NCBI RefSeq assembly: GCF_016107395.1
Contig: NZ_JAAIKO010000003.1
Coordinates: forward strand, 62,001-126,000
DNA length: 64,000 nucleotides
Origin: Streptomyces fildesensis
GTDB lineage: Bacteria > Actinomycetota > Actinomycetes > Streptomycetales > Streptomycetaceae
Direction: 5' to 3'
Positions 7,738 to 63,988 of the stretch are shown piece after piece (the stretch's first letter is position 1; each line of letters begins with the position of its first letter). Made by a program: the position numbers and the translations under genes. A model generated the notes under the pieces. It did not search any database. It worked only from the letters and a program-made list of their open reading frames with translations, and was not told the DNA's origin.

Positions 7738-8664
7738 ATGTCGGCTAGCCGCTACACCTATCTGGGTCCTGAAGGCACTTTCACCGAGGCCGCGCTCAGA
7801 ACGCTGCCCGAGGCGGCGACCCGGGAGCTGGTCCCGATGGTGTCGGTGCCGGCCGTGCTGGACGCCGTGCGCAACGGCGAGGCCGGCGGGGCGCTGGTGC
7901 CCATCGAGAACTCGGTGGAGGGCGGCGTGACCGCCACCCTGGACGAGCTGGCGACCGGCGTGCCGCTGATGATCTACCGCGAGGTCCTGCTGCCGATCGC
8001 GTTCGCGCTGCTGGTGCGGCCGGGCACGAAGCTCAAGGACGTGAAGACGGTGACCGGCCACCCGGTCGCCCAGCCGCAGGTGCGCAAGTGGCTGCGGGCC
8101 CAGCTGCCGGACGCGCTGTGGGAGTCGTCGGCGTCGAATGCGGACGGGGCGCGGCTGGTGCAGGAGGGCCGGTTCGACGGCGCGTTCGCGGGCGAGTTCG
8201 CGGCGTCCACGTACGGTCTCGAACCGCTCGTCACCGAGATCCATGACGCGAAGAACGCGGCGACGCGCTTCGTCCTGGTCGGCCGCCCGGCCCGCCCGGC
8301 GGCGCCGACCGGCGCGGACAAGACCTCGGCCGTCTTCTGGCTGGGCGACGACCACCCGGGCGCGCTGCTGGAGCTCCTGCAGGAGTACGCGGTGCGCGGT
8401 GTGAACCTGGTGCGCATCGAGTCCCGGCCGACCGGCGAGGGCATCGGCCGGTACTGCTTCTCGGTGGACTGCGAGGGGCACATCACCGACCGGCGGGTCA
8501 GCGAGGCGCTGATGGGGCTCAAGCGGATCTGCCCGCAGGTCCGGTTCCTGGGCTCGTACCCGCGGGCCGACGAGGTCCGTCCCCAGGTACGCCCCGGCAC
8601 GACCGACAGCGAGTTCACCGACGCCGCCGACTGGCTGGGCCGGGCGCTGGACGGGCGGGGCTGA
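7738..8664 (+). CDS. pheA: Prephenate dehydratase
   Basis: This 308-residue monofunctional enzyme decarboxylates and dehydrates prephenate to phenylpyruvate in phenylalanine synthesis. The periplasmic-binding-like catalytic domain starts with YLGPEGTFTEAAL and contains PIENSVEGGV and NAATRFVLVG, whose Thr is catalytic. A C-terminal ACT domain for phenylalanine feedback has the signature GALLELLQEYAVRGVNLVRIESRP-like block (about residues 205-230). There is no chorismate mutase domain. It starts 27 bases after the DyP gene, so read-through from the copper operon is possible, although the ATG is also preceded by GCATTAGGGTGACGGT, which could hold its own -10. It is followed by the DnaA-box region. 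Confidence 0.95.
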   Translation: MSASRYTYLGPEGTFTEAALRTLPEAATRELVPMVSVPAVLDAVRNGEAGGALVPIENSVEGGVTATLDELATGVPLMIYREVLLPIAFALLVRPGTKLKDVKTVTGHPVAQPQVRKWLRAQLPDALWESSASNADGARLVQEGRFDGAFAGEFAASTYGLEPLVTEIHDAKNAATRFVLVGRPARPAAPTGADKTSAVFWLGDDHPGALLELLQEYAVRGVNLVRIESRPTGEGIGRYCFSVDCEGHITDRRVSEALMGLKRICPQVRFLGSYPRADEVRPQVRPGTTDSEFTDAADWLGRALDGRG

Positions 8665-8700
8665 GCTGCCCTCCAAGGCGGCCCGCCGGTGTCCCCGTAG

Positions 8701-9060
8701 TTGTCCACTGAGTTATCCACAGGCCCGAGGTCCAGCCTGGGGATAACTGGGGATAAGTCGACAGACCAATCTGACCTAGTCGACAAATCGGCACACAGGC
8801 ACCGAGCCCGTCCACAGTGGCCCAGGTCACCCTTCGTCAGCCCAATTCCTCTGATCAACTCTATAGGGGGAACACTTCTCACTCGAAAGTGAGTGTTAAG
8901 AGGGTTTGGACCGGGAATCCTTCGCCGAGCACCGGGCGTCCGGAACGATCAACTCCGTCTTCCACAGTTCGCACACACAACCTGTGGACAAAGGAAAAGA
9001 ATCCCCATCCACCTGTGGATAACTCGGGTCCGCACCCCCTCCCAACTCCCGTTCTCCACA
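8701..9060. promoter_or_regulatory. Cluster of DnaA boxes between pheA and serS
   Basis: The intergenic region of 553 bases holds a cluster of 9-mers matching the Streptomyces DnaA box (Y-Y-G/A/C-TCCACA). Full matches are TTATCCACA at 8713-8721 and, on the minus strand, 9014-9022; TTGTCCACA on the minus strand at 8983-8991; CCGTCCACA at 8808-8816; and TTCTCCACA at 9052-9060. One-mismatch copies are at 8701-8709, 8738-8746, 8748-8756 and 8958-8966. The stretch is much more AT-rich than its surroundings and holds no plausible gene. Such clusters outside oriC titrate DnaA. S. coelicolor has one called D78 that, as I recall, lies in this part of the chromosome. Confidence 0.85.
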
Positions 9061-9217
9061 AGGGCGGTGCCCCGATGGAGGGATGCGGTGAATTCGGTTG
9101 ACGGCACCCTTTTGTCCGTTATTGCATTTCGCTCCCCTTTTCCCAGAAACGGACATAACGCCACCAAAAGCCCTTAACTTGTCGCGTCGGACCCCGCCGC
9201 CCCGGTAGCCTGTAGCC

Positions 9218-10495
9218 GTGATTGACCTTCGCCTGCTTCGTGAGGACCCCGACCGTGTGCGCGCCTCCCAGCGCGCCCGTGGAGAGGACGTCGCGCTCGT
9301 CGACGCCCTCCTCTCCGCCGACGAGCGGCGCAGGTCGTCCAGTCATCGCTTCGACGAACTGCGCGCCGAGCAGCGCCAGCTCGGCAAGCTCATCCCCAAG
9401 GCCCAGGGGGACGAGAAGGCCGAACTCCTGAAGAAGACCGGCGTGCTCTCGGCCGCGGTCAAGGCCGCGGACGCGGAGCAGAACGAGGCCGCGCAGGAGG
9501 CCCAGAGCCTGCTGCTCAAGCTCGGCAACCTCGTGCACCCGGACGCGCCGATCGGCGGCGAGGAGGACTTCGTCGTCCTCGAGCAGCTCGGTGCGCCGCG
9601 CGACTTCGCCGCCGAGGGCTTCGAGCCCAAGGACCACCTGGAACTGGGCGAGATCCTCGGCGCCATCGACGTGGACCGCGGCGCCAAGGTCTCCGGCTCG
9701 CGCTTCTACTACCTGACGGGCGTCGGCGCGCTGCTGGAGCTGGCCCTGGTCAACGCGGCGATCGCGCAGGCCACCGCGGCCGGCTTCGTCCCGATCCTGA
9801 CCCCGACCCTCGTCAAGCCCGCGGCCATGGCCGGCACCGGCTACCTCGGCCAGGTCGACGACGACGTGTACTACCTGGAGAAGGACGACCTGTACCTGGT
9901 CGGCACCTCCGAGGTCCCGCTCGCCGCGTACCACATGGACGAGATCATCGACGCGGCCAAGCTGCCGCTGCGGTACGCGGGCTTCTCGCCCTGCTACCGC
10001 CGCGAGGCCGGGTCGTACGGCAAGGACACCCGCGGCATCATCCGGGTGCACCAGTTCGACAAGGTCGAGATGTTCGTCTACACCACGCCGGAGGACGCCG
10101 AGGCCGAGCACCAGCGGCTCCTGGAGTGGGAGAAGCAGTGGCTCACCGCCCTGGAACTGCCGTTCCAGGTGATCGAGCTGGCCTCGGGCGACCTGGGCTC
10201 CTCGGCGTCGCGCAAGTTCGACTGCGAGGCGTGGATCCCGACCCAGGGCAAGTACCGCGAGCTGACCTCGACGTCGAACACCACCGAGTTCCAGTCCCGC
10301 AGGCTGTCGATCCGGCTGCGTGACGAGAACGGCACCCGCCCGCTCGCCACGCTCAACGGCACGCTGTGCGCCGTACCGCGCACCATCGTGGCGATCCTGG
10401 AGAACCACCAGCAGGCCGACGGCTCGGTCCGGGTCCCGGAGATCCTGCGCCCGTACCTGGGCGGCCGTGAGTTCCTGGAGCCGGTCAGCAAGTGA
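9218..10495 (+). CDS. serS: Seryl-tRNA synthetase
   Basis: This 425-residue class II synthetase charges tRNA(Ser) (and tRNA(Sec)) with serine in the cytosol. The N-terminal coiled-coil arm (about residues 30-100, rich in Glu/Ala/Lys) binds the long variable arm of tRNA(Ser). The catalytic core shows motif 2 ([25 protein letters not shown]) and the upstream [10 protein letters not shown] that contacts serine. Motif 3 ends in [19 protein letters not shown]. The GTG at 9218 gives [15 protein letters not shown], the standard N-terminus. It is preceded by the DnaA-box cluster and by 150 bases with no other recognised element. The stop overlaps the start of the next gene (GTGA). Confidence 0.97.
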
Positions 10496-63899: not shown

Positions 63900-63988
63900 T
63901 TATCCACAGGCCCTGTGGACGGAGGCATCCAACCTGTGGAGAAGCCGCCTCAACCTGTGCACAGGCCTTGGGAAACCGCTGTGGACAA
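63900..63988. promoter_or_regulatory. Cluster of DnaA boxes upstream of dnaB
   Basis: Four consensus boxes lie in 89 bases: TTATCCACA at 63900-63908, and on the minus strand CCGTCCACA at 63914-63922, TTCTCCACA at 63935-63943 and TTGTCCACA at 63980-63988. The repeated TGTGGA strings around them are not explained by coding sequence. The cluster may continue beyond the window end, so the total is a minimum. Confidence 0.85.

Follow-up and report, generated by a model that had tools for sequence, protein, structure and literature searches.

A family-wide cluster of DnaA boxes between pheA and serS as a probable oriC-proximal DnaA-sequestering locus of Streptomycetaceae

To our knowledge, little is understood in Actinobacteria of how DnaA is restrained from one initiation to the next. 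The window analyzed here, a stretch of 64,000 bp, contains a non-coding gap between pheA and serS in which DnaA boxes are crowded. This raises the question of whether the cluster exceeds chance, whether it is kept among relatives, and whether it holds back DnaA, builds an active complex or has another role. A preliminary description had interpreted it as a DnaA titration locus and as the likely counterpart of the Streptomyces coelicolor cluster D78.

DnaA boxes in the pheA-serS gap

Both neighboring genes were confirmed with Pfam: pheA (7738-8664, + strand) codes for a prephenate dehydratase (PF00800) and serS (9218-10495, + strand) for a seryl-tRNA synthetase (PF00587/PF02403). The geneless region of 553 bases that had been described between them could be placed at 8665-9217, and the small ORFs within it were judged to be chance occurrences. 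The G + C content of the gap is 56% vs. 70% in 400 kb of the contig. An Rfam search of 8500-9400 yielded no match up to E = 1. A scan of 8600-9300 for promoter- or terminator-like consensus sequences remained empty, and a reading of the gap as promoter or terminator was rejected on this ground.

An exact DnaA box was defined as TTRTCCACA, and the weaker class comprises boxes with one mismatch. All boxes of the gap with at most one mismatch are located, on both strands, inside the previously described interval 8701-9060. For this interval five exact and four one-mismatch boxes had been stated, of which the analysis recovered three and four, respectively. A table in PMC4285127 lists TTGTCCACA as the high-affinity box for S. 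coelicolor and TTATCCACA as the one for E. coli and others. The features of the gap are compiled in the table.

Features of the pheA-serS gap in window coordinates; g1 is the genus of the window, and counts of gaps refer to the genera g1, g22 and g27
Feature	Position	Strand	Remarks
Non-coding gap holding the cluster	8665-9217		553 bp, between pheA and serS
One-mismatch DnaA box TTGTCCACT	8701-8709	+	sequence variable at this site across relatives
Box A, exact TTATCCACA	8713-8721	+	+ arm of left inverted pair
Box B, one-mismatch TTATCCCCA	8738-8746	-	- arm of left inverted pair; 25 bp from A, start to start
Box C, one-mismatch TTATCCCCA	8748-8756	-	TTGTCCCCA or TTATCCCCA in many relatives
Conserved AAGTCGACA element adjoining box C	8755-8764		in 32/35 g1 and 24/25 g22 gaps
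Conserved GTCGACAAATCGG element	8779-8791		GTCGACAA in 31/35 g1, 21/25 g22 and 6/9 g27 gaps
Central segment between both box groups	8866-8957		near-invariant columns within g1
Palindrome CTCACTCGAAAGTGAG	8878-8893		within the central segment
Two-mismatch box TCTTCCACA, core TCCACA	8958-8966	+	+ arm of right inverted pair
Box D, exact TTGTCCACA	8983-8991	-	- arm of right inverted pair; box starts 25 bp apart
Box E, exact TTATCCACA	9014-9022	-	31 bp from box D
Box F, one-mismatch TTCTCCACA	9052-9060	+	exact TTGTCCACA in some relatives

The gap had been called denser in boxes than chance would allow, and this holds. When the gap was shuffled 2000 times at constant composition, three exact or seven total boxes were never reached, the means being 0.0065 exact and 0.155 total boxes. 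A genome-wide count, which the preliminary description had proposed, revealed 53 exact boxes in the 9.39 Mb of the own genome (470 contigs). If these were scattered randomly, the expected number of boxes opening a triple within 310 bp would be about 8e-5. At least three exact boxes within 400 bp occur in only two places of the genome, the pheA-serS gap and C327:207343-207541, the latter being the gap between a rhomboid gene and crgA. The same two gaps are again the sole such places in the complete relatives G002 and G033, the two with full hit lists among the 12 genomes searched. In the whole window, 23 boxes with at most one mismatch were counted vs. 7.2 expected (sd 2.55). The box cluster is thus real and not due to chance, and it is smaller than first stated.

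Position relative to oriC and to the other box clusters

Within 400 kb of the contig, boxes with at most one mismatch are most crowded at 165809-166163, where ten one-mismatch boxes and no exact box were counted. This group was identified as oriC, since it sits between dnaA and dnaN, whose identities Pfam confirmed. At the own oriC, the 1050 bp following dnaA contain no exact box, and 13 boxes if up to one mismatch is tolerated. For comparison, 74 usable 1050-bp stretches after dnaA were obtained from the named dnaA loci, of which there are at least 80; S. coelicolor is absent among the matches listed. 50 of these oriC regions have no exact box, 23 have one and a single region has two, which means that exact boxes are scarce at oriC and concentrated in side clusters. 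The pheA-serS cluster does not combine placement between dnaA and dnaN with the box layout of oriC.

In the own genome the pheA-serS cluster is located 95 kb from oriC. It shares with D78 the nearness to oriC and the grouping of several consensus boxes, away from oriC itself, within a short piece of non-coding DNA. As around the origin of B. subtilis, several gaps near oriC carry box clusters: on the same side as the pheA-serS cluster, the dnaB gap with two exact boxes at a distance of 40 kb, and on the opposite side, the rhomboid/crgA gap with four exact boxes at 41 kb. The position at 207 kb of C327 had been considered as oriC and was rejected, as it corresponds to the rhomboid/crgA gap and oriC is located at 165.8 kb. 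Like the pheA-serS cluster, these two clusters bring exact boxes close to oriC; unlike it, neither has the fixed inverted core pair described below.

The dnaB-side group is located at 63900-63988, continues past the window to C327:126162 and comprises two exact and two one-mismatch boxes, one of the four lying beyond the window end. Its gap is divergent and located upstream of dnaB, and the exact boxes are 80 bp apart, likewise in G002, G033 and G017. The rhomboid/crgA cluster (L059 4343-4541, corresponding to the C327 coordinates given above) has its four exact boxes between convergent genes and is the richest place for exact boxes in the genome; its internal spacing is identical in G033 and G017. 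Furthermore, four exact boxes within 200 bp were observed about 230 kb from dnaA in a genome of genus g2 (G075:C1:3952253-3952444).

The distance between serS and dnaA was 70-145 kb in all of 22 genomes from eight genera; G075, whose boxes flank pheA on the opposite side, is among them. Five of these genomes (G300, G190, G164, G081 and G075) have serS and dnaA on opposite strands, so that the locus was inverted or has switched side there, yet is still near oriC.

Conservation and geometry of the cluster in Streptomycetaceae

The conservation check that had been proposed along with the first description was carried out on 100 genomes of the Streptomycetaceae: 35 of g1, 52 from 16 other genera and 13 reached via named loci (15 were fetched, of which two duplicated others in the set). 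Two to five exact boxes form a cluster at the same place in 97 of the 100, a count that, like all cross-genome counts given here, includes close relatives and does not represent independent events. It directly follows pheA in 95 of these 97 genomes. In L026 and L028, both of g1, the cluster precedes serS, and the 1.5 kb examined showed no pheA. All 15 genomes chosen from the at least 80 named loci, S. tricolor included, have the cluster in the pheA-serS gap. As genus g22 includes S. curacoi and S. griseoviridis, matched by identical contig coordinates, it represents Streptomyces, and the window's g1 is a separate genus within the family; the genus framing of the preliminary description, which had spoken of other Streptomyces genomes, has to be corrected in this respect.

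Three genomes, G035 and G075 of g2 and G062 of g18, have no box 3′ of pheA. Exact boxes are found 5′ of pheA instead, namely one in G035, two in G075 and three in G062. Those of G075 are located between convergent genes for a Dyp-peroxidase and a UPF0014 protein, in G035 another open frame, encoded on the minus strand, is the left neighbor, and the boxes of G062 fall inside an open frame and may be unrelated to the cluster. The small box groups upstream of pheA in g2 and g18 were recorded at L170 246-339 (reverse complement), L171 490-543 and L172 509-563, the L172 group being located between convergent genes and the L170 group inside an open frame. Outside the family, no exact box was found within 3.9 kb around pheA in six outgroup genomes from two other families, and in 14 outgroup genomes of these families the 700 bp preceding serS were free of boxes even with one mismatch allowed.

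In five genomes (three of g3 and one each of g17 and g28) pheA and serS are split by a gene on the opposite strand. It encodes a polysaccharide deacetylase in g3 and g17 and a diacylglycerol kinase in g28, as identified by Pfam in g17, g28 and one of the three g3 genomes. The exact boxes of these genomes lie beside pheA, between convergent 3′ ends. The position next to serS is consequently not kept in all relatives, and the separation by a gene argues against a role as serS promoter.

Two irregularities were noticed in the genome set. The DnaA N-terminus of L184, titled Kitasatospora aureofaciens, is 99% identical to the query and the record has a Streptomyces-type cluster, so that it may be mislabelled. 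At G005:C2:4352646-4353916 serS is split over two frames, perhaps by a sequencing error.

The box arrangement seen most often is a pair of inverted cores (TCCACA-N16-TGTGGA) with box starts 25 bp apart. It occurs in 94 of 99 cluster sequences, followed by the next commonest offset in 28 of the 99. It was found in none of the 74 oriC regions, where both orientations were searched and one arm was permitted to be TGGGGA. The strict pair is present a single time in 400 kb of the own contig, in the pheA-serS cluster; with TGGGGA in one arm, the pair occurs at two sites there, one of them in this cluster. The window holds both forms: the left pair (boxes A and B) has one TGGGGA arm, and the right pair (the box at 8958 and box D) is strict. 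The strict pair is absent from the g21, g23, g25 and g28 sequences, one for each genus, and from one of two g24 sequences. The left pair is less regular, with an offset of 25 in 33 of 35 g1 and 21 of 25 g22 sequences and other offsets or none in several genera. The spacing of boxes D and E is 31 bp in 14 and 32 bp in 21 of the 35 g1 genomes, 29-31 bp in 22 of 25 g22 sequences and 29-33 bp overall where the two boxes are present. In g27 the right-hand group is arranged differently and the D-E tandem was not seen.

The central segment between the box groups is also conserved. Near-invariant columns make up 45% of it in g1, and 34% and 48% of the two box segments, compared with 17% for 9061-9160, 35% for 9161-9217 and 25% for the third codon positions of serS, the latter computed from 30 of the 35 g1 genomes. 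Its mean identity in g1 (0.83) is not above that of the serS third positions (0.84). Even if up to three mismatches are allowed, the 20-mer bearing the palindrome is single copy in the 9.39 Mb genome. Among the 35 g1 genomes, the palindrome pairs change on one side only and no compensatory change was observed, 20 of the 35 being paired at 8881/8890. This one-sided variation favors a protein site over an RNA hairpin.

Probable sequestration of DnaA and alternative explanations

The gap is best explained as an oriC-proximal locus that sequesters DnaA, which we regard as likely, and as very probably the orthologue of the S. coelicolor D78 cluster, an identity based on position. The sequestering reading builds on the boxes, their conservation and spacing, their position near oriC and the scarcity of exact boxes at oriC, and it is also backed by the persistence of the cluster where another gene parts it from serS. 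Of the earlier interpretation, a non-coding cluster of exact boxes that lies near oriC and is retained throughout most of the family has stood; box counts and genus were revised. The three g2 and g18 genomes without a box 3′ of pheA and the six outgroup genomes without an exact box around pheA count against sequestration, and so, with regard to sequestration alone, do the fixed spacing and the conserved central element, which exceed the needs of pure titration.

Deletion of the D78 cluster of S. coelicolor reportedly led to a higher initiation frequency and faster colony maturation, as is said to have been found by Smulczyk-Krawczyszyn and coworkers in 2006; the coupling of replication to development in the preliminary description would derive from this phenotype. 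We take D78, H24 and H69 to be names of cosmids on which serS, dnaB and crgA of S. coelicolor lie. Since the three clusters found here adjoin these very genes, the identification with D78 is very likely. The clusters of the rhomboid/crgA and dnaB gaps are presumably the counterparts of H69 and H24, respectively, the latter being a probable match.

DnaA binding, the order of affinities and a brake on initiation would follow by analogy with the S. coelicolor clusters, datA and the B. subtilis clusters. The strong boxes around an inverted pair of fixed geometry would outcompete the weak oriC boxes, at a distance of about 95 kb, for DnaA. Owing to its closeness to oriC, the locus would be copied soon after initiation and hence be doubled early in replication. 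The doubled sites would then retain DnaA and keep it off the weak oriC boxes, and the DnaA held back in this way would delay the next initiation. A replication brake reported for one species would thus correspond to a family-wide, geometrically constrained locus that adjoining gene insertions have not displaced.

Two reviews describe the S. coelicolor clusters near oriC and the clusters of B. subtilis as repressing untimely initiation. Like D78, the cluster of the window is located outside oriC in a member of the same family; it comes, however, from a genus other than that of D78. The DnaA-box clusters (DBCs) of B. subtilis likewise lie outside oriC, and their removal advances initiation, as stated in PMC5295017. 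It is reported there that B. subtilis has six DBCs and that a strong effect, early initiation, was seen only with all of them removed (Okumura et al., 2012, as cited in PMC5295017); the same review calls their role not significant. Common descent of the B. subtilis DBCs and the pheA-serS cluster is not evidenced. The datA locus of E. coli is a further box cluster outside oriC that restrains initiation, with an effect that varies with chromosomal position and copy number (PMC5295017). According to the same review, datA requires IHF and acts via hydrolysis of DnaA-ATP.

So rigid a geometry suggests that the locus may do more than titrate DnaA passively. It is possible, and proposed here tentatively, that the cluster forms an active complex of the datA/DARS type, in which inverted pairs together with a partner on the central element would build a DnaA oligomer that alters the nucleotide state. 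The prevalence of the core pair over the next offset and its absence from the 74 oriC regions speak for this, as do the narrow D-E spacing and a central segment that is near-invariant like the boxes and single copy in the genome; the E. coli loci likewise conserve spacing and partner sites. On the other hand, the central element has no known partner protein, simple cooperative binding would also fix the spacing, and the right-hand layout of g27 differs, lacking a visible D-E tandem. Somewhat more doubtful is a still wider proposal, by which fixed DnaA dyads and a partner-binding central element would constitute a nucleoprotein machine specific to Streptomycetaceae rather than a passive sink, switching off DnaA in a datA-like manner; if true, the locus would give development a handle on replication. 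The inverted core pair and the single-copy central element make the choice between titration and an active complex testable in Actinobacteria.

Compared with sequestration, it is unlikely that the gap is a DnaA-controlled regulatory region for the expression of serS or pheA. The cluster is indeed located upstream of serS in the window, where its last box (F) ends 157 bp before the start codon, and the 57 bp before serS are fairly conserved in g1 in terms of near-invariant columns. Such a role is contradicted by the five genomes with an opposite-strand gene between cluster and serS and by the boxes of G075 between convergent genes. A second or relict replication origin, which the many DnaA boxes and the low G + C content would suit, is highly improbable, given that oriC with its 10 weak boxes in 360 bp is located between dnaA and dnaN 95 kb away and that the box geometry of the cluster is missing from all 74 oriC regions tested. 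A structured RNA or a small gene, with the boxes being incidental, is slightly more improbable than the regulatory role. Any reading frame across the D-E interval would be shifted between the g1 genomes with a spacing of 31 bp and those with 32 bp, which speaks against a small gene. For an RNA, column shuffles of the central segment and the palindrome yielded z-scores of -4.7 and -3.8 on the reverse strand, and 8665-8860 gave -8.1 on the forward strand at a weak energy of -2.5; the forward strand of the central segment reached just -2.0 and -0.4. An RNA element was rejected due to the lack of both an Rfam match and compensatory pairs in the palindrome. The fold of the whole region 8713-9022 gave column-shuffle z-scores of -11.8 and -10.0, to which no weight was given because they arise mainly from inverted DnaA boxes pairing with each other.
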